DNA of 15,881 nucleotides from Spirochaetia bacterium (lineage in GTDB: Bacteria; Spirochaetota; Spirochaetia; Treponematales; Breznakiellaceae): the NCBI GenBank assembly GCA_025997755.1, contig BNVA01000029.1, positions 1 through 15,881 of the forward strand, written 5' to 3'. The first letter of the stretch is position 1; each line of letters starts with the position of its first letter. The notes beneath the pieces were generated by a model. That model made no database searches. It was not told where the DNA came from and was given only the letters and a program-made list of their open reading frames with translations. This document shows, in pieces, positions 1,343 through 8,658 of the stretch. Made by a program: the position numbers and the translations under genes.

Positions 1343-1372
1343 TTGCAAGAATAAAAATTACTCTGTTATAAT
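1343..1372 (+). promoter_or_regulatory. extended -10 sigma-70-type promoter of the fdhF transcript
   Basis: The -35 is TTGCAA (1343-1348), followed by an 18-base spacer and a perfect -10 TATAAT (1367-1372). TG at 1364-1365 gives the extended -10 motif TGnTATAAT. Transcription is predicted to begin near 1379, so fdhF would have a leader of about 275 bases. The sequence closely resembles the yedE promoter at 5124-5152. Start site not measured. Confidence 0.7.
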
Positions 1373-1402
1373 AAATCATCTTAAAGATTTTGGAGGTCTA
1401 TT

Positions 1403-1459
1403 ATGACGTACGTTTTTAAAATGTTGTCAATCGCCGCCTCCCCAAAAGGGGAGCCGTGA
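1403..1459 (+). CDS. putative 18-aa leader peptide ending in an in-frame UGA
   Basis: An ATG at 1403 has a strong Shine-Dalgarno (GGAGG at 1392-1396, spacing 6) and lies about 24 bases after the predicted transcription start. It encodes MTYVFKMLSIAASPKGEP and then TGA at 1457-1459. The same frame continues open from ATG 1460 to a TAG at 1640-1642, which overlaps the AGAGGAG Shine-Dalgarno (1641-1647) of fdhF. The peptide has no run of one amino acid, so classical amino-acid attenuation is not obvious. Either this is a short leader peptide, or the UGA is a conditional selenocysteine/readthrough codon. Neither peptide resembles a protein I know. The RBS is the main support; chance cannot be excluded. 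Confidence 0.35.
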   Translation: MTYVFKMLSIAASPKGEP

Positions 1460-1539
1460 ATGGGTAATTTGGTAAAGGCCAGGATGGCTTTGGATTGTAA
1501 GGAAATAAATCACACCTTTTTGAGGCGCCGTCCGGCGCT
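1435..1539 (+). promoter_or_regulatory. structured leader RNA of fdhF with competing hairpins
   Basis: The leader between the promoter and fdhF holds several perfect inverted repeats. Hairpin A is CTCCCC-AAAA-GGGGAG at 1438-1453, just before the UGA. A bulged hairpin spans 1474-1491. Hairpin B is a GCGCC-GTCC-GGCGC stem at 1525-1538. CGCCTC at 1435-1440 can instead pair with GAGGCG at 1522-1527, which would disrupt both A and B, so two exclusive folds are possible. No uridine run follows any stem, so a simple intrinsic terminator is not supported; control of translation or RNA stability would fit better. No known riboswitch class was confidently matched. Outside these elements I see no conserved gene in 1288-1653. 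Confidence 0.35.
1474..1491 (+). promoter_or_regulatory. SECIS-like bulged hairpin downstream of the leader UGA
   Basis: The stem is AAAG paired with CUUU, then one bulged base (G1478), then CCA paired with UGG, closing a GGA loop at 1482-1484. The helix begins 14 bases after the UGA (1457-1459) and the loop lies about 22 bases after it. From memory, the E. coli fdhF SECIS mini-helix has a similar plan: helix starting about 11 bases after the UGA, a single bulged base, three pairs, and a loop beginning GG. Differences count against it: the bulge is G instead of the important U, the loop has three bases, and the lower stem is weak A-U. A chance hairpin is quite possible. Confidence 0.25.
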
Positions 1540-1653
1540 GAAAGTTTTAACTTACCACATAAAAATTCCCTATTTTTCAATGTCTCGCGAAACCTTTGCG
1601 TTGCAAGAAATTCAACACATCTGTGTTCAGAAATATTTTTAGAGGAGTTTTAT

Positions 1654-3849
1654 ATGGCTACAAAGGAAATTCAAACCACCTGTTGTTACTGCGGCGCGGG
1701 TTGTCAGCTCTTGTTTACTGTTGATCAAACGGCAAACAAGATTCTCGACGTTCACCCCGTAGCGGGCAGAACAAACGATGGCAAAGCCTGTTTAAAAGGC
1801 TGGTACGGCTGGGATTATTTAAATGATCCGCAGATCTTAACAAAACGTTTGCGGGAACCTATGATCCGCAAGGGCGGTAAAAAGTCGCCGCTGGAAGTTG
1901 TAAGCTGGGACGAGGCGATTAAATTCGTGGCGGACAACTTTAAAAAAATCAAGGACAAATGGGGACCTGATTCTTTCCTAGTTGCCGCTTCGGCTCGCGG
2001 CCCGGGTAACGAAGCCGGTTACATAACGCAGAAATTCGCGCGCGCCGTTATTGGAACAAACAACATTGACCACTGCGCCCGTATCTGCCACGCGGCATCG
2101 GTTGCAGGCTCCATGGCGACCATAGGCGAAGGCGCTATGTCGCTTTCAATACCGGAAATCGAAGACTGCGAAGTTATCTTCAACATCGGCTATAACGCGG
2201 CGGCAAGTCACCCGATTGTGGCGCGGCGTATTGTAAGGGCAAAAGAAAAAGGCGCGTTTATTATCTGTGCAGACCCGCGCATCACGGAAACCGCCCGCAT
2301 TGCCGATATGCACCTTCAGCTTAAAGGCGGCACGAATGTTGCCCTAGTGAACGCGATGGCACACGTTATCATCAGCGAAAACCTAATGGACAACGAATTT
2401 GTAAAAGCTCATACAAAGGGTTTTGATGAATTCTGGGCTGTCGTAAAAGAAGACACGCCGGAGCGCAATGCGAAAATCTGCGGACTATCGCCTGAGGACA
2501 TACGTTTTGCAGCGCGTAAATACGCTTCCAGCAAACACTCGGTTATCACTTGGGGAATGGGCATCACTCAGTTCAGCCAAGGTGTAGAAACAGTAAAATG
2601 CTGCTGTTCACTTGCTATGCTCACCGGCAACTTCGGACACTATGCCTGCGGAACAGGACCGGTTCGCGGACAAAACAACGTGCAGGGTACCTGCGATATG
2701 GGCGATCTGCCGAACGTATACCCGGGCTATCAGAGCGTTACCGACCCCGAAATTCAGAAAAAGTTCGAGAAGGCATGGGGCGTAAAACTCGATAACAAAG
2801 TGGGTATTCAGCTTACACGTATCCCGGAATTTACCATTCATCAAAAGGATCCTGCAAAACGAATTCACGCTTATTACATTACTGGCGAGGATCCGGCTCA
2901 GTCCGATCCTGATCTGGAAGAACTTCGTGAAAGCCTTGATGCCGTTGATTTCGTTGTCTGTCAGGATATTTTCTGGAACAAAACCCTCCAGCACGCCGAC
3001 GCGGTACTTCCTGCGACAGCATGGGGCGAACATGACGGCTGCTATACATCAAGTGATCGCGGTTTCCAGCGCATACGCAAGGTGATTGAGCCTACAGGCA
3101 ATGTTTTAACCGATTGGGATATTACCTGCCGCATAGCCCGCGCAATGGGCTACCCGATGCCTAACTACAAAAATACCGAGGAAATTTGGAACGAGATGAT
3201 AGACCTTTCTCCGAAATTCACCGGTGTTACCTACGAGAAACTCGAAAAATATGTGAGTATTCAGTGGCCATGCTGGGACAAAGGCTTGGAAGACAAGGGC
3301 ACGATGTTCCTCCACAAAGACGGACATTTTGCCACACCGGATGGAATCGGTATACTCAAAACATCACCGTATCAACCACCGGCGGAGGTTGAAAACAACG
3401 AGTACCCGATCACGCTCTGCACTGTACGCGAGGTTGGTCACTATTCTGTGCGCACAATGACGGGCAACTGCCGTACATTACGCAATCTTGAGGATGAGCC
3501 GGGCTGGGTGGAAATATCGCCGGAAGACGCGGAAGCGCTCGGTATAAAGCATAAAGAATTGGTGCGTGTTTCTTCCAAACGCGGTTCGGTTATCACCCGT
3601 GCCAATATTACCCAGCGTGTAAAAAAAGGCGCTGTGTATATGACCTATCAGTGGTGGGTTGGCGCTTGTAACGAGCTAACGATTTCTGTATTAGACCCCA
3701 GCAGCAAGACGCCGGAATACAAATACTGCGCCTGCAAGGTTGAAAAACTAGCTGATCAAAAAGCGGCATGGGAGGCGGTCAATAAAACATTATACGATCT
3801 TCGTACGAATATGCGTATTGACGCAGCAAGAGAGGGGGTATCAGCATGA
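1654..3849 (+). CDS. fdhF: formate dehydrogenase H-type catalytic subunit, cysteine variant
   Basis: A 731-residue molybdenum/tungsten bis-MGD enzyme interconverting formate and CO2, clearly related to E. coli FdhF (715 residues). The N-terminal [4Fe-4S] ligands are C10, C13, C17 and C46, with the conserved Lys in CLKGWYGWD (K48). The active-site block is CARICHAASVAG: C145 takes the place of selenocysteine and is followed by the conserved H146. R338 lies in GPVRGQNNVQG. The C-terminal molybdopterin-binding domain (VREVGHYSVRTMTGNC, MTYQWWVGACNEL) is complete. Codon 145 is TGC (2086-2088), one base from UGA. The start has AGAGGAG at 1641-1647. The downstream gene overlaps by ATGA, so the two subunits are coupled. 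No hydrogenase gene is adjacent. In Treponema primitia a Cys paralogue is known whose mRNA falls when selenium is present; similar control here is inferred. Confidence 0.95.
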   Translation: MATKEIQTTCCYCGAGCQLLFTVDQTANKILDVHPVAGRTNDGKACLKGWYGWDYLNDPQILTKRLREPMIRKGGKKSPLEVVSWDEAIKFVADNFKKIKDKWGPDSFLVAASARGPGNEAGYITQKFARAVIGTNNIDHCARICHAASVAGSMATIGEGAMSLSIPEIEDCEVIFNIGYNAAASHPIVARRIVRAKEKGAFIICADPRITETARIADMHLQLKGGTNVALVNAMAHVIISENLMDNEFVKAHTKGFDEFWAVVKEDTPERNAKICGLSPEDIRFAARKYASSKHSVITWGMGITQFSQGVETVKCCCSLAMLTGNFGHYACGTGPVRGQNNVQGTCDMGDLPNVYPGYQSVTDPEIQKKFEKAWGVKLDNKVGIQLTRIPEFTIHQKDPAKRIHAYYITGEDPAQSDPDLEELRESLDAVDFVVCQDIFWNKTLQHADAVLPATAWGEHDGCYTSSDRGFQRIRKVIEPTGNVLTDWDITCRIARAMGYPMPNYKNTEEIWNEMIDLSPKFTGVTYEKLEKYVSIQWPCWDKGLEDKGTMFLHKDGHFATPDGIGILKTSPYQPPAEVENNEYPITLCTVREVGHYSVRTMTGNCRTLRNLEDEPGWVEISPEDAEALGIKHKELVRVSSKRGSVITRANITQRVKKGAVYMTYQWWVGACNELTISVLDPSSKTPEYKYCACKVEKLADQKAAWEAVNKTLYDLRTNMRIDAAREGVSA

Positions 3850-4361
3850 ACTCATTCGTAAAAGCAACACCGCTGCGCTGTATCGGCTGCAGAACCTGTA
3901 TGATAGCCTGCGTTGTAGCGCATGAAGGCAAACGGATTTTTGAAATTGATCCCGATGGTTATGCGTTTAACCCGCGCCTCTTTATGATTAAAACCGCCAA
4001 ATTGAGTGCGCCGGTTCAATGCCGCCACTGCGAAAATGCCGCCTGCAAACAAGCCTGTACTTCCGGCGCGATCAGCATAAAAGATGGAATAGTCAGCATT
4101 GATGCAAAAAAATGTATAGGCTGCAAAAACTGCGTTATCGCCTGTCCCTTTGGCGCGGTCGAAATCGCAGAAACGGCGGAAGTGAACAACGACGGTACGG
4201 TAAAGAAACTCGCAAATAAATGTGATCTTTGCAAAGGCGTAGCCGACAATCCGCAGTGTGTGCGTGTCTGCCCGACGGAAGCCTTAGCATTGGTAACCGA
4301 AGACGCATTTACAGACTGCTTAGCCAAAAAGCGCAAAAACGCACTGGAAGGCAATCTGTAA
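3846..4361 (+). CDS. HydN/HycB-like ferredoxin subunit with four [4Fe-4S] clusters
   Basis: A 171-residue electron-transfer protein with 16 cysteines in four groups: C12-C15-C18-C22, C59-C62-C67-C71, C90-C93-C96-C100 and C126-C129-C138-C142. This pattern and the opening (RCIGCRTCMIAC) match E. coli HydN and the HycB-type subunits that carry electrons between FdhF and hydrogenase in formate hydrogenlyase or hydrogen-dependent CO2 reductase complexes. The ATG overlaps the fdhF stop by four bases (ATGA), and GAGGGGG lies upstream, so both proteins should be made together. No signal peptide is seen, so it acts in the cytoplasm. No hydrogenase or other partner gene follows. HydN and HycB cannot be separated from sequence alone, so no symbol is given. 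Confidence 0.9.
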   Translation: MNSFVKATPLRCIGCRTCMIACVVAHEGKRIFEIDPDGYAFNPRLFMIKTAKLSAPVQCRHCENAACKQACTSGAISIKDGIVSIDAKKCIGCKNCVIACPFGAVEIAETAEVNNDGTVKKLANKCDLCKGVADNPQCVRVCPTEALALVTEDAFTDCLAKKRKNALEGNL

Positions 4362-4429: not shown

Positions 4430-5071
4430 ATGAAAAAAATTTTAACAGCGGCGGCTTTTTTGTTGCTTTTATCCGGTTTTTGTTTTGCAGGCGCGGGGCG
4501 CGAAAAATCCGAGATAGGTCCTTCGTTTACAGCCTCATGGACAACCGAAAAAGGTGACGACGGGAATGAGTATAAAATATTCATGCCGGCAATGGGTTTT
4601 CAGGTAGGCGTCGCAAGTTACTTCAACGATTTTATCGGACTTAAAAATTCTATGAATGTCTTTTTTCCATGGGAAATGACGGTTGAATCCGGTGCAGATT
4701 CATATAAATTTAAGGGATCAGACTTTTCCCGCCTTGTAGGCTTTGACGATACTTTTGGAGTGGTTATCAGTTTGATTAATACCGGCTTCTTTGAACTTCC
4801 GCTTTTTCTGGGCGCTCATTTTTCATTCTTATTTTTAAAATATAATGGCATATCAGAATCCACCGTATTGATAGGCGCTACCGGCAATCTCGCCGCCGAA
4901 TTCCATTTTACCGATTCTGTATACCTTTCTATAGGTTCCGGCATTACCGCCGATTTTGTAAGTATTTCTGACGTTACCGTAGGTAGAACGAAAACTTACG
5001 GCGATCCGAATTATTCGACATTCGTGCTGGGAATCAATCCCTCAATCTGCATAGGGATCCAGTCGCCATAA
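4430..5071 (+). CDS. secreted barrel-like protein of unknown function
   Basis: The protein has 213 residues and begins with a clear signal peptide (MKK, leucine-rich core, likely cleavage after FCFA near residue 20). There is no lipobox. The mature part is rich in F, G, S and T with alternating hydrophobic stretches (MGFQVGVASYF, GFFELPLFLGAHFSFLF, LSIGSGITADFV), as in small outer-membrane barrels or periplasmic beta proteins of treponemes. The RBS is GTGGGGG at 4417-4423. It lies 68 bases after the ferredoxin gene and before the yedE promoter, so it may be the last gene of the fdhF transcript or have its own weak promoter. I do not recognise the family. Its general plan resembles the protein at 574-1287, but I see no alignable homology. 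Confidence 0.65.
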   Translation: MKKILTAAAFLLLLSGFCFAGAGREKSEIGPSFTASWTTEKGDDGNEYKIFMPAMGFQVGVASYFNDFIGLKNSMNVFFPWEMTVESGADSYKFKGSDFSRLVGFDDTFGVVISLINTGFFELPLFLGAHFSFLFLKYNGISESTVLIGATGNLAAEFHFTDSVYLSIGSGITADFVSISDVTVGRTKTYGDPNYSTFVLGINPSICIGIQSP

Positions 5072-5123
5072 GCATCCGGCGCTATTAACCTTTTCATGCA
5101 AATATTTTTTAAAAGATAGTCGG

Positions 5124-5152
5124 TTGCCAAAATAAACATACCCTGCTACAAT
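5124..5152 (+). promoter_or_regulatory. extended -10 promoter of the yedE operon
   Basis: The -35 is TTGCCA (5124-5129), followed by a 17-base spacer and -10 TACAAT (5147-5152), with TG at 5144-5145 giving TGCTACAAT. Much of the spacer matches the fdhF promoter at 1343-1372 (both carry AATAAA followed a few bases later by an AT step and a C-rich stretch before TG). Transcription is predicted to start near 5159. Confidence 0.65.
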
Positions 5153-5173
5153 AAGTACTAAAATATTCACAAT

Positions 5174-5193
5174 CGTTCAGCCTTTGCTGAGCG
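5174..5193 (+). promoter_or_regulatory. hairpin in the yedE leader
   Basis: CGTTCAGC (5174-5181) pairs with GCTGAGCG (5186-5193), giving eight pairs including one G-U, with a CTTT loop. It lies between the predicted transcription start and the Shine-Dalgarno (AAAGGAG, 5205-5211). No U run follows, so it is not a terminator. It could stabilise the mRNA or bind a regulator. Confidence 0.4.
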
Positions 5194-5217
5194 GACTTTA
5201 ATCAAAAGGAGTTTTGT

Positions 5218-6306
5218 ATGGGTGCAAAACAAGTAAGTGTATCCGGCAAGTCATCTCTGGTATGGCTTGTTGGAACGGGGGCTGTCATAGGCGGGTTGGC
5301 TGTATTGCTCACAAAGTTTGGAAATCCGGCTAATATGGGACTTTGCGCTGCCTGTTTTCTTCGGGATGCCGCCGGAGCTTTGGGACTGGACGTTAATACA
5401 GCGCCGTCGTATTTAAGACCGGAAATTCTCGGGTTTTTATTGGGGGCATTCATTTTGTCCAAGTTAAGGGGTGAGTGGAAAAGTCAGGGAGGTTCCGCTT
5501 CTCTCTCGCGGTTTTTCATAGCCTTTTTTGTGATGATAGGCGCGCTTGTTTTCCTGGGCTGTCCGTTGCGTGTAATGCTGCGTCTTGGCGGCGGCGATTT
5601 AAACGCCCTTATAGGTCTTATTGGATTCGGTGCCGGTGTTGGTATAGGCAGTATATTTATCCGCAAAGGTTTTTCGTTTGGAGAAGTAAAAGTTCAAGGC
5701 ATCGCCAACGGTTGGATTATGAGCGTCCTAGCGGTAGTGCTTCTGGTTTTTCTAATTGTAAAGCCCGCCTTTATCCGCTTTAGCGCAGCAGGTCCCGGCT
5801 CACAGCACGCGCCGGTTATCGTTTCTTTGGTATTTGCCATAATTATAGGCGCTCTCGTACAAAAAAGCGGGCTTTGTATGTCGGGCAGCATACGCAATAT
5901 CGTACTTATAAAGAATCCAACGATGTTTTGGGGTTATCTGGCTATCTTTGTTATCGCACTCATAGGTAATCTTGTTCAGGGCAGCTTTAAGTTAGGATTT
6001 GAAGGTCAGCCCATAGCACACACCAATGCCCTCTTTAACTTTTTAGGGCTCGCGTTGGTAGGATACGGCTCAGTGTTATTAGGCGGCTGCCCGTTACGTC
6101 AAATCATCATGGCAGGGGAAGGCAACTCCGATTCAGGAATCTGTATTTTGGGATTTATAGTTGCCGGAGCCACCGCACACAACTTTGGCATCGCCGCTTC
6201 GCCCGCCGGTGTACCCTTAAACGGCAAAATCGCCGTGATAATCGGTATACTCGTGATTACAGTTTTTGCCTTTTCGTATACGAAAAAATCCGCAGCAAAA
6301 GCCTAG
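5218..6306 (+). CDS. yedE: YedE/FdhT-type (YeeE/YedE family) membrane transporter, likely for a selenium or sulfur species
   Basis: A 362-residue integral membrane protein with many hydrophobic segments from residue 14 to 352. It has two related halves, each with a GCPLR motif (C115 in GCPLRVMLRLGGG; C291 in GGCPLRQIIMAGEGN) and a second cysteine patch (LCAACFLRD, C43/C46; SGLCMSGSIRN, C220). These are hallmarks of the YeeE/YedE family, which includes the thiosulfate transporter TsuA. The selenium-linked branch YedE/FdhT affects formate dehydrogenase activity in Campylobacter. The start has AAAGGAG at 5205-5211, six bases before the ATG. It heads an operon: its stop TAG overlaps the GTG of the next gene. 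Position directly after fdhF and beside DUF3343 favours the selenium-type assignment, but thiosulfate or another sulfur species is possible. Confidence 0.85.
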   Translation: MGAKQVSVSGKSSLVWLVGTGAVIGGLAVLLTKFGNPANMGLCAACFLRDAAGALGLDVNTAPSYLRPEILGFLLGAFILSKLRGEWKSQGGSASLSRFFIAFFVMIGALVFLGCPLRVMLRLGGGDLNALIGLIGFGAGVGIGSIFIRKGFSFGEVKVQGIANGWIMSVLAVVLLVFLIVKPAFIRFSAAGPGSQHAPVIVSLVFAIIIGALVQKSGLCMSGSIRNIVLIKNPTMFWGYLAIFVIALIGNLVQGSFKLGFEGQPIAHTNALFNFLGLALVGYGSVLLGGCPLRQIIMAGEGNSDSGICILGFIVAGATAHNFGIAASPAGVPLNGKIAVIIGILVITVFAFSYTKKSAAKA

Positions 6307-6590
6307 TGAACGGGCATACAGATACTGTATTGTTTACCTTTGAAACGATAAGCGCTGCGTTGAATTGCGAGCTTGTTATCAAAGGTTTGAAAAAGCTGGG
6401 GGCTGAGCAAACGATAATTGGGGGGTGCCGGGTAATTCCGGTTCCCCGAAAACTTGAGGCATCATGTACATACGCGATTGTTGCAGAGACCGGGGACATT
6501 ACCGGCCTCTGTACATCGCTTGGGGCAAAAGGTGCGAATTACAAAAAAGTGTTTCGCTTTGTCGGCGAACAAGATTTTGAGGAACTATAG
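6306..6590 (+). CDS. DUF3343 family small protein, putative Se/S carrier
   Basis: A 94-residue protein with a GTG start that shares one base with the yedE stop (TAGTG), a strong sign of translational coupling. It matches the DUF3343 pattern: a beta strand (VLFTF), an amphipathic helix, then the family motif IPVPRKLEASCTYAI with its cysteine at position 54, and a final helix. Further cysteines are C21, C41 and C69. The family has been described from genome context as a putative selenium/sulfur carrier because it occurs with YedE-type transporters and selenium enzymes; no biochemical role is settled to my knowledge. Cys54 is the likely reactive residue by conservation. It is about 10 residues longer than many members, with an extra N-terminal HTDT segment. 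Confidence 0.8.
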   Translation: MNGHTDTVLFTFETISAALNCELVIKGLKKLGAEQTIIGGCRVIPVPRKLEASCTYAIVAETGDITGLCTSLGAKGANYKKVFRFVGEQDFEEL

Positions 6591-6656
6591 AAATTTACAA
6601 AAGAAATCATCGCACGGAAATTGAAGCTGTAAACATCAGATTAAAAGGAGATCGCT

Positions 6657-7817
6657 ATGTTTGAATCCGACAACCGGCAGTTGCCGGAAATTTTTGAATC
6701 TTTTTCTGATGCCCGCAAGCAGGGCTTTATCGCCATGAAAAATCTAAAAGAACAAGGCAAGGGAGTTGTGGGAACTTTTTGCACCTATGTGCCGGTGGAG
6801 ATTTTTTTGGCAGCCGGGCTTGTACCGGTGGGGCTGTGTTCAACCAGTGATGAAACCATAGGCGTGGCGGAAAAAGTTCTTCCCCGCAATCTCTGTCCCC
6901 TAATTAAGGCTTCCTACGGGTTTGCCGCCGCCGATAAATGTCCATATATGTATTTCTCCGATCTGGTGGTTGGTGAAACAACCTGCGACGGGAAAATAAA
7001 GATGTACGAGCTTCTGGGAAAAATAAAAGATGTATATGTGATGGAACTTCCCCACAGCCAGCAAAGCCCATCCTCCCGCGCACTCTGGATGGAAGAAATA
7101 AAACGTCTAAAAACAAGGGTGGAAGAAAAATTCGGCGTACAAATCACTGTAGAAAAACTGCGCCAAGCAATAAAGGAGCGCAACAAAGAACGGGCGCTGC
7201 TAAAAAACGTGTATGAACTTTCTGTGATTAGCCCTCCTCCCCTCTCAGGCTTACAGCAGCTTCAAATTCTGTTCGGCGCTCAGTTCAAATTCAACCACGA
7301 ACAAAAAGTACAGGAACTGGAAGAAACCATAAACAAGATTACTAACGAATACCAAAATGGGAACCGTCCTGTTTCTGCGGAGGCTAAGCGTATTATTGTA
7401 ACCGGTTGTCCTATTGGCGGCGTTACGGAAAAGTTCACCCGCATAATTGAGGAAAGCGGCGGTGTTGTGACGGCTTATGAAAACTGCACCGGAGCAAAAC
7501 AATTCGATAGGCAGGTTAATGAGACTGCCGACCCATACGAAGCCCTCTGCGACTATTACCTCAATGTAGGATGCAGCGTGATGAGTCCAAATCCCAACCG
7601 TCTTGAACTGCTGGGACGGCTATGCGATCAATTCAATGCCGACGGGGTACTCGAAATGGTATTGCAGTCATGCCATACCTACGCCATAGAATCGTATACC
7701 ATCGGGGAATTCCTTAAATCCCGAAATATACCCTTTATGAGCATGGAGACCGATTATTCCACAGGAGACACGGAGCAGCTTAAAAACCGCATAGCCGCCT
7801 TTATTGAGATGTTGTAA
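6657..7817 (+). CDS. yjiM: double-cubane-cluster protein, YjiM type (2-hydroxyacyl-CoA dehydratase superfamily)
   Basis: A 386-residue protein very close to E. coli YjiM over its full length (LCSTSDETI, LPRNLCPLIKASYGF, CPYMYFSDLVVGETTCDGK, GCPIGG, YENCTGAK, QSCHTYAIES, METDYSTGD and the terminal AAFIEML). The family binds a [8Fe-9S] double-cubane cluster. Cysteines available as ligands include C42, C80, C95, C110, C251, C277, C306 and C339. Members accept very low-potential electrons from an ATP-driven partner and reduce small molecules such as acetylene or hydrazine in vitro; the natural substrate is not known. It lacks a CoA-dehydratase second subunit partner gene, which supports DCCP and argues against hydroxyacyl-CoA dehydratase. 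AAGGAG at 6645-6650 sets the start. The activator gene follows after 10 bases. With YedE and DUF3343 it may reduce a selenium or sulfur compound; that is inference. Confidence 0.9.
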   Translation: MFESDNRQLPEIFESFSDARKQGFIAMKNLKEQGKGVVGTFCTYVPVEIFLAAGLVPVGLCSTSDETIGVAEKVLPRNLCPLIKASYGFAAADKCPYMYFSDLVVGETTCDGKIKMYELLGKIKDVYVMELPHSQQSPSSRALWMEEIKRLKTRVEEKFGVQITVEKLRQAIKERNKERALLKNVYELSVISPPPLSGLQQLQILFGAQFKFNHEQKVQELEETINKITNEYQNGNRPVSAEAKRIIVTGCPIGGVTEKFTRIIEESGGVVTAYENCTGAKQFDRQVNETADPYEALCDYYLNVGCSVMSPNPNRLELLGRLCDQFNADGVLEMVLQSCHTYAIESYTIGEFLKSRNIPFMSMETDYSTGDTEQLKNRIAAFIEML

Positions 7818-7827
7818 AGTAACAGTT

Positions 7828-8658
7828 ATGAGTACGGAGGTAATAACGGCCGGTGTTGATATAGGATCGCTTAGTACCAAAACGGTAATCTTTTCCGGCA
7901 ATAAAATCGCCGGTTCAAGCATCATACAAACCGGTATAAACACCGTTGAAAACGGCGAAAACGGGCTTAAAACGGCGCTTGCAAACGCAAATGCCATTAA
8001 ACAAGAGGATTTACAATTTATTGCGGCAACCGGTTACGGACGTATCTCTGCGCCGTATGCTCAAAAAACAATTACAGAAATTACCTGTCATGCGCGCGGA
8101 GTACATTTTATGCACCCCGCCGCCCGTACAATTATTGATATGGGCGGACAGGATTGTAAGGCGATACGGCTTGACGAAGACGGCAATGTAACCGATTTTG
8201 CCATGAACGATAAATGCGCGGCAGGCACAGGACGATTTCTTGAAGTTATGGCAAATGTATTTAAAGTGCCGCTGGAAGATTTAGGACCGCTCGCGCTAAA
8301 AGCAACGGAATTACTTTCCATATCAAGTACCTGCACAGTATTTGCCGAATCCGAAACTATATCACTTCTTGCGCGCGGCGAAAAACCGGAAAATATTATT
8401 TTAGGAATTCATCATGCAATAGCAAACCGTATAAACAGTATGTTCGCCCGCATCGGTATCGAAAACGATGTATTTTTTTCGGGCGGTGTTGCAAAAAATA
8501 CCGGCATGAGAAACGCGCTTGAAGAAGTTATGCACATAACACTTGCAGAGCCGCGTTACGATCCGCAGCTTGCCGGAGCCTTAGGCGCGGCGATCATCGC
8601 ACAAGAATTGCTTACAAAGCAAAAGAAAAAGGAGGGCGGGCAATACCGCGCTCTGTAA
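7828..8658 (+). CDS. yjiL: ATPase activator/reductase of the double-cubane protein (BadF/HgdC family, YjiL type)
   Basis: A 276-residue ASKHA-fold ATPase that uses ATP to push electrons into the double-cubane partner. Seen motifs are the phosphate-1 loop DIGSLSTK (11-18), IIDMGGQD (102-109), NDKCAAGTGRFLE (C130), SSTCTVFAESE (C169) and FFSGGVAKN (216-224). C130 and C169 are the pair expected to bridge a [4Fe-4S] cluster across the homodimer. I chose ATG 7828 because it gives the family N-terminus; the frame also has a TTG at 7804, inside the previous gene, which is less likely. The RBS is poor (TAAAG at 7815-7819), so translation may depend on coupling to yjiM. Its last 47 bases overlap the 3' end of mtnA on the opposite strand. 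Confidence 0.88.
   Translation: MSTEVITAGVDIGSLSTKTVIFSGNKIAGSSIIQTGINTVENGENGLKTALANANAIKQEDLQFIAATGYGRISAPYAQKTITEITCHARGVHFMHPAARTIIDMGGQDCKAIRLDEDGNVTDFAMNDKCAAGTGRFLEVMANVFKVPLEDLGPLALKATELLSISSTCTVFAESETISLLARGEKPENIILGIHHAIANRINSMFARIGIENDVFFSGGVAKNTGMRNALEEVMHITLAEPRYDPQLAGALGAAIIAQELLTKQKKKEGGQYRAL

Follow-up and report, generated by a model that had tools for sequence, protein, structure and literature searches.

A recurrent UGA-interrupted leader with a SECIS-like hairpin in gut spirochaetes: a candidate selenium sensor

We have found a leader element built around an in-frame UGA codon upstream of fdhF, the gene for a selenium-free, cysteine (Cys)-type formate dehydrogenase alpha subunit, in a 15,881-nt stretch of DNA from a Spirochaetia bacterium (contig BNVA01000029.1; this whole stretch is called the window below). 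The leader consists of a short open reading frame (ORF1) that ends in Pro-UGA, a frame that stays open behind the UGA up to the next gene and, within that frame, a hairpin (hairpin 2) resembling a selenocysteine insertion sequence (SECIS). The element is real and not a product of chance, a judgement made because it recurs in relatives of the window. That it acts as a cis-acting selenium sensor built on a selenocysteine (Sec)-decoding UGA is the reading we favour, although we consider it evenly balanced between right and wrong. The wider proposal is tentative, and we see it as possible rather than probable: in a leader family of gut spirochaetes, Sec insertion versus termination at one UGA would report selenium and switch three selenium-starvation operons (the Se-free formate dehydrogenase, a YedE module and an ABC transporter-DCCP module).

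Recurrence of the leader element

The promoter, the ribosome-binding site, the 18-codon ORF with its UGA, the 60-codon frame, the stop over the fdhF Shine-Dalgarno (SD) sequence and the hairpin described in the initial annotation were all recovered in place (Table 1). Taken alone, the leader of the window is weak and unconvincing: the probability of an open tail behind the UGA is 0.097 (last 15 nt excused), hairpin 2 has a z-score of -0.59 with 73 of 300 shuffled sequences equally stable, and the fold of the whole leader has a z-score of -1.53. Five distinct complete elements are available, namely those of the window, of two further fdhF loci (L001 and L002), of locus L120 in genome G001 and of genome G145. 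For their open tails the product of the chance probabilities is 3.8e-5 (last 15 nt again excused), a value that is overstated since the three fdhF copies share ancestry. Among 2,000 background UGA triplets, 2.7-3.4% are followed by a hairpin of like kind and strength; one is present in 5/5 elements, at a nearly identical position.

The search of genome contigs for FdhF produced at least 80 loci, those listed being 36 Cys-type and 44 Sec-type by our tally. The closest FdhF relatives of the window protein among the loci listed (93% identical) are encoded at L001 and L002, and both share its leader, with the consensus (V/M)TRxFxGGIAASPxGVP-UGA-MANQxKAWRVLDCK; UGA, open frame and hairpin are therefore retained in the nearest orthologues, which was the comparison suggested at the outset. 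A general leader of Cys-type fdhF genes was ruled out, as by motif or among the tblastn matches listed L001 and L002 are the only carriers in the set of 80 loci, 36 of them Cys-type; at L007 and L031 less than 100 nt of upstream DNA is available, so that presence of the leader is not assessable there. Locus L003 has a leader without the element, although its FdhF is 89% identical to that of the window. This gene (L003 2322-4521) lies on a contig labelled Candidatus Adiutrix, which looks like gene transfer or a binning error.

When 195 genomes of the family were searched with a profile and a sequence-only model, seven strong places were found in five genomes: G001 (two), G002, G003 (two), G007 (at a contig end) and G145, with one TGA apiece in the profile search. 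In a sample of 392 genomes from the phylum, matches with an E-value of 0.01 or better were confined to G001 and G145. Weak profile matches in G141 and G037 proved false on inspection. The metagenome protein P0001 resembles the post-UGA frame of a further copy (73% identical to the query) and, judging from its end, would read past an fdhF start.

The other parts of the leader recur as well. The promoter-like site of the window is not above chance by itself (one site against 1.0 expected in shuffled sequences); promoter-like sites at the same position were seen in L001, L002, L120, L119 (in genome G003) and G145, where they were judged by eye, the consensus scan having covered the window. GGAGG or AGGAG precedes the ORF1 start in the four remaining distinct elements. 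Hairpin 1, at the end of ORF1, has a fold z-score of -3.16 in the window and of about -2.4 in both yedE copies (L120 and L119), and is clearly stable only in these three; by folding it is unstable in L001, L002 and G145. The + strand of the window has no terminator-like site. Rfam gave no match at the gathering score in the window, L001, L002 and eight further loci, and in the leader region 1270-1720 its E-values were 2.4 and above, which is chance level.

Peptide, open frame and hairpin

ORF1 is conserved in L001, L002, L120, L119 and G145 and is a short conserved ORF with its own SD sequence directly 5′ of the downstream gene. The five distinct elements have Pro-UGA-AUGG in common, with an ORF1 of 16-18 codons; Pro precedes the UGA in all seven aligned elements, and an AUG adjoins it on the 3′ side in every copy. 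Of the changed codons among the last nine of ORF1, 59% are synonymous, versus 20% in simulation (0/2000 simulations as high; the codon test treats related pairs as independent). Because synonymous changes exceed the simulation, we take these codons (IAASPxGVP) to be selected as a peptide. The peptide GIAASPxGVP equals a C-terminal motif of the YedE protein (GIAASPAGVP, GIAASPNGVP), and the match extends mostly to the DNA too; the simplest guess is that ORF1 descended from a yedE fragment. 3′ of the activase gene of G001 (L120 5378-5420) there is also a third copy of the core, which is decayed and lacks the UGA (GIAASPKGVPRSS).

In all 5/5 complete distinct elements the in-frame UGA has an open frame on both sides, and the stop is UGA in every complete element, never UAA or UAG. 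The frame behind it has 60 codons in the window, 82 in L001, 67 in L002, 52 in L120 and 63 in G145, and ends within the fdhF SD sequence in the window, just inside fdhF in L001 and L002, with an ATGA overlap in L120 and 9-11 nt into a permease gene in G145. Up to the start codon, each of the other two frames has 2-6 stops in all five elements. Selection on the encoded residues is much less apparent here: the 14 codons after the UGA (G145 left aside) have 23% synonymous changes versus 14% simulated (p 0.046), and the tails of L120 and L119 differ by three synonymous and six other changes. The stop-free profile matches that were inspected are YedE proteins (with V or L at the position of the leader's UGA) or false positives. 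An ordinary small selenoprotein gene was set aside, the tail being unselected and no Cys counterpart having been found. The AAGGCC of hairpin 2 is shifted by one base relative to the frame in G145, which points to conservation at the RNA level. The stretch after the UGA is thus selected mainly as RNA, and the tail is simply kept open.

The upper stem of hairpin 2 (AAAGGCCAGGAUGGCUUU in the window) begins 14 nt after the UGA. According to PMC13188914, the bacterial SECIS (bSECIS) model has a loop of 3-9 nt, a stem of 4-16 bp and a G within the first two loop positions; the loop is mostly N1-G[G/U]-N-N2 with N1:N2 paired, the distance from UGA to the apical loop is 16-37 nt, and the minimum free energy (MFE) is at most -7.5 kcal/mol. 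The loop and stem rules hold for hairpin 2 in 5/5 elements, with the apices A-GGA-U, U-GGA-G, C-GUA-G and C-GGG-C (in the last of which N1:N2 is unpaired). The apex G is offset from the UGA by 22, 22, 22, 22 and 20 nt, inside the spacing rule. The MFE of the 42-nt segment is -7.1 in the window, -13.3 in L001, -8.9 in L002, -9.4 in L120 and -8.8 in G145 (another fold in G145). We therefore regard hairpin 2 as predicted to fit the loop, stem and spacing rules of the model, and as borderline by the energy rule. The initial objection that the bulge is G rather than U carries little weight, since the general bacterial model depends on the apical loop and the spacing.

Among 2,000 background UGA contexts, 29.55% have some rule-fitting hairpin, and 0.65-1.05% have one equally good at an offset of 19-22. 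By an earlier measure the leaders score -6.3 to -6.8 versus -5.3 to -5.8 for six true SECIS elements of Sec-type fdhF genes, and 2.2-3.0% of 2,500 background contexts reach the leader scores. Pairing covers 90.9% of alignment cells in the given register and at most 63.6% in slid registers.

Downstream genes, selenium machinery and neighbouring observations

The leader precedes three kinds of operons, all plausible selenium-starvation genes. In the window, L001 and L002 the gene behind it is Cys-type fdhF; that of the window has its Cys codon at 2086-2088, within the active-site motif CARICH. In G001 a paralogous leader copy is followed by DUF3343-YedE-DCCP-activase, and in G003 by YedE-DCCP-activase with DUF3343 cut down, both leaders being located just 3′ of a SelB-like frame. 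The deletion in DUF3343 of G003 (L119 862-1045) puts the C-terminal part of that gene in frame after the UGA leader, 5′ of yedE. In G145 the leader precedes an amino-acid-type ABC transporter, DCCP and activase, and is divergent from selA-selB; for the transporter, cystine-type models are best or next-best, below the cut-off. The same cluster has NifS-like, YedF-like and SelD genes and both fdhF genes (names partly assigned by eye). A second copy of the leader upstream of yedE was seen neither in the window, where the stretch 5072-5217 ahead of the selenium module has no UGA leader, nor in G002.

YedE and DUF3343 are treated as selenium genes in PMC5322559. In Methanococcus maripaludis a yedE transcript rises by log2 +5.28 upon selenium depletion, and the table that lists this among transporters influenced by selenium also includes an amino-acid ABC transporter gene (PMC11097638).

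The carriers appear to be users of Sec. A tRNA-Sec over the cut-off was found in 33/195 genomes of the family, including four of the five carriers (G001, G002, G007 and G145); G003 has none over the cut-off, and it has an fdhF with in-frame TGA and fragments of SelB. SelB scored over the cut-off in G001 and G002 and was recognised by eye in G145; the earlier call for selenium machinery is answered for G001 and G002, the genomes of L001 and L002, which have both SelB and tRNA-Sec. In G007, whose FdhF is 98% identical to that of the window, there is no SelB match at E 1e-30; this gap is probably due to assembly, because an EF-Tu-like match is equally missing, unlike in other genomes. G001 seemingly has two SelB-like frames (L120 3-1517 and G001:C34:4549-6480), one of them directly 5′ of the yedE-type leader.

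Table 1. Coordinates of the leader parts, of the genes of the window and of related features at other loci
Feature	Position	Strand	Evidence or remark
Promoter-like site TTGCAA-18-TATAAT	1343..1372	+	consensus scan; immediately 5′ of leader
SD sequence GGAGG of ORF1	1392..1396	+	sequence
ORF1, 18 codons, MTYVFKMLSIAASPKGEP	1403..1459	+	translation; ATG at 1403, UGA at 1457-1459
Hairpin 1, CUCCCC-AAAA-GGGGAG	1438..1453	+	fold; 3′ arm is the G-rich stretch ahead of the AUG at 1460
Open frame behind UGA, 60 codons, first codon AUG	1460..1639	+	translation; TAG at 1640-1642 ends the frame
Hairpin 2, SECIS-like	1466..1496	+	upper stem 1474-1491, apex A-GGA-U; lower stem 1466-1470 with 1492-1496
SD sequence AGAGGAG of fdhF	1641..1647	+	sequence; overlapped by the leader-frame stop TAG 1640-1642
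fdhF, Cys-type formate dehydrogenase alpha subunit	1654..3849	+	TIGR01591, 812.1 bits, cut-off 666.25
HydN-like 4Fe-4S electron-transfer subunit	3846..4361	+	follows fdhF; best matches under curated cut-offs
Selenium module	5218..8658	+	YedE, DUF3343, DCCP, activase
YedE	5218-6306	+	TIGR04112, putative selenium transporter, 447.6 bits
Se/S carrier (DUF3343), 94 aa	6306-6590	+	PF11823, putative Se/S carrier
Double-cubane reductase DCCP	6657-7817	+	NF040772
Activase	7804-8658	+	TIGR00241
GIAASPxGVP/YedE motif matches	window 1430-1456 and 6178-6237; L120 3270; L136		reverse strand in L136
Second leader type	L008 1000-1167; L009 9170-9344; L010 590-765; L012 9815-9985		
Second leader type	L013 5560-5730; L014 3170-3353; L017 1865-2043; L068 4090-4261		

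Other observations were made at related loci. The Cys-type fdhF genes of a second group of treponemes carry another type of leader, conserved, structured and about 170-185 nt long, with CTTTGGTGA...TTCACCAAAG and then GGCCGG...ATTCACGG...GCCGG. In this leader type 7/27 predicted pairs are changed on both sides; no Rfam match was found at the gathering score, and for L009 none at E 5. We regard it as a candidate for a new cis-regulatory RNA. At two contig ends (L119 4272-4622 and L121 1-560) the contig passes from the fdhF leader into neighbouring sequence in inverted orientation; these junctions are probably chimeras from single-cell amplification and not real inversions. In the window, two unnamed proteins with signal-peptide-like starts (574-1287 and 4430-5071) flank fdhF and the HydN-like gene.

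Proposed selenium sensing and its alternatives

As a selenium sensor the leader would work as follows. Ribosomes would translate ORF1 and arrive at Pro-UGA, probably a site of slow termination. When selenium is present, SelB on hairpin 2 would deliver Sec-tRNA, Sec would be inserted at the UGA and the ribosome would go on translating the open frame and run into the next gene's ribosome-binding site; with selenium absent, it would stop at the UGA and perhaps restart at the adjoining AUG at a different rate. The differing ribosome traffic across the gene start would, through a presumed coupling step, set expression. Most likely, a shortage of selenium would turn on both the selenium-free enzyme and the uptake-type genes, a direction drawn from logic only, because such genes should be off with selenium.

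Several observations weigh against this reading. The known copies come from a few related genomes of one spirochaete family, and the related copies were counted in the statistics; by motif or among the tblastn matches listed, the element is present at 2/36 Cys-type loci listed. As to hairpin 2, the window misses the energy limit of the model, the 42-nt segment of G145 folds best into a different structure, and the apex is unlike the CGGGU of the group's own SECIS elements in Sec-type fdhF genes. Compared with shuffles of the same segment, z-scores are from -1.94 to +0.5, with no excess stability, and covariation is weak, being limited to a single pair with changes at both positions, a level that 139/500 shuffles match. 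By the codon test none of the post-UGA residues is clearly selected as protein, and there is no Cys-containing counterpart of the post-UGA frame among the profile matches, while the AUG after the UGA and the selected ORF1 peptide are unnecessary for Sec sensing. The function of YedE is unproven; an export role is offered as well in PMC5322559, and PMC11097638 describes its search for selenium transporters as so far unsuccessful.

Folding adds a further point of this kind, since it predicts no switch at the fdhF SD sequence by a ribosome at the UGA. In the window the unpaired value of the SD region is 0.25 for the free leader, 0.25 with a ribosome at the UGA and 0.54 only with the tail removed; in L002 it rises from 0.18 to 0.44 with the ribosome at the UGA, and the other three change little. 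The initial proposal, in which read-through represses fdhF, thus finds no support in predicted SD pairing, and the folding would, if anything, favour coupling over occlusion.

The leader was also put forward as the cause of a selenium response of Cys-type fdhF. In Treponema primitia, transcripts of the Cys-variant formate dehydrogenase reportedly fall upon selenium supply. In G145, which is probably T. primitia, the leader of the Cys-type fdhF is short and lacks the element, so that if the identification holds, that response cannot stem from this leader. The initial interpretation finds partial support: the leaders of L001 and L002 and the copies before selenium-transport-type operons speak for it, and the listed Cys-type loci without a recognised copy, as well as the Cys-type fdhF of G145, speak against it as a general cause.

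Arrest at ORF1 offers a different account of the same parts. A C-terminal Pro slows termination, and TnaC ends in Pro-UGA. ORF1 may similarly be a TnaC-like arrest peptide that stalls at Pro-UGA in response to a ligand, which could be formate or a compound of selenium or sulfur, with the UGA as an ordinary release factor 2 stop and hairpin 2, at the leading edge of the ribosome, as part of the switch. Selection of IAASPxGVP as amino acids and the Pro before the UGA in all copies fit this explanation, which we nevertheless hold to be unlikely: it accounts neither for the frame that is open to the next start in 5/5 elements nor for the SECIS-like loop and the confinement to genomes that look Sec-using. 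Ordinary coupled small ORFs are a simpler arrangement, in which UGA-AUG stop-restart carries ribosomes to the next gene and no selenium is sensed here. The AUG right after the UGA in every copy makes such coupling possible; the G-rich stretch ahead of the AUG and the ends of the frame at the next start, in SD sequences or ATGA-like overlaps, agree with it. Given that the stop is always UGA and never UAA or UAG, that a SECIS-like hairpin is present in every complete element and that the downstream genes share a selenium theme, we find it quite improbable.

Two further explanations keep only a part of the element. SelB with Sec-tRNA on hairpin 2 might act as a roadblock that represses the next gene with no read-through, in the way reported for the selAB leader of E. 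coli. In favour, hairpin 2 agrees with the bSECIS loop rule and is the part conserved at the RNA level after the UGA, yet the UGA, the ORF1 peptide and the open frame would all be unneeded and are all conserved, which makes a roadblock very improbable in our view. Finally, the leader might be a relic of a copied 3′ piece of yedE (GIAASPxGVP) with no present role, as the match of ORF1 to the YedE GIAASPAGVP in peptide and DNA and the UGA-less third copy after the L120 activase gene would allow. Against codon selection in ORF1, and with SD sequence, UGA, hairpin 2 and open frame intact before three kinds of operons, this is scarcely credible.

The proposed selenium sensor has likenesses to several known systems. 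With the bSECIS Sec sites of the E. coli and clostridial fdhF type it shares an in-frame UGA followed at 16-37 nt by a hairpin with a G[G/U] apical loop, and SelB and tRNA-Sec are present in the leader's relatives; unlike those sites the leader makes no enzyme, its short frame has an unselected tail and ends at the start of the next gene, and its apex differs from that of the group's own fdhF-Sec SECIS. Thanbichler and Boeck (2002) reportedly described an element of SECIS type in the leader of E. coli selAB that regulates a selenium gene; there too a SECIS-like hairpin lies within a leader, but that leader is not known to have a UGA-interrupted ORF, and the controlled genes differ. TnaC-type arrest leaders also have a short conserved peptide, a Pro-UGA end and an operon downstream and are not known to be related to ORF1 in sequence; here the frame stays open past the UGA and contains a SECIS-like hairpin. 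In Methanococcus, Cys isoenzymes and yedE likewise vary with selenium status (PMC11097638 and PMC5322559); control there is exerted by HrsM/LysR, a protein repressor of transcription whose cue is unknown, and not by a cis-acting leader. No description of such a leader was found in the open-licence PMC literature searched, mostly at the level of titles and the first lines of abstracts.

Selenium sensing in Methanococcus is called an open question in PMC11097638. If the proposed reading is true, a leader that uses its UGA to read the supply of Sec-tRNA would directly answer how selenium is sensed, and would be a case of a recoding event with a purely regulatory job. It would also define a selenium regulon of those acetogenic spirochaetes of the gut in which formate dehydrogenases of both the Sec and the Cys type are retained.

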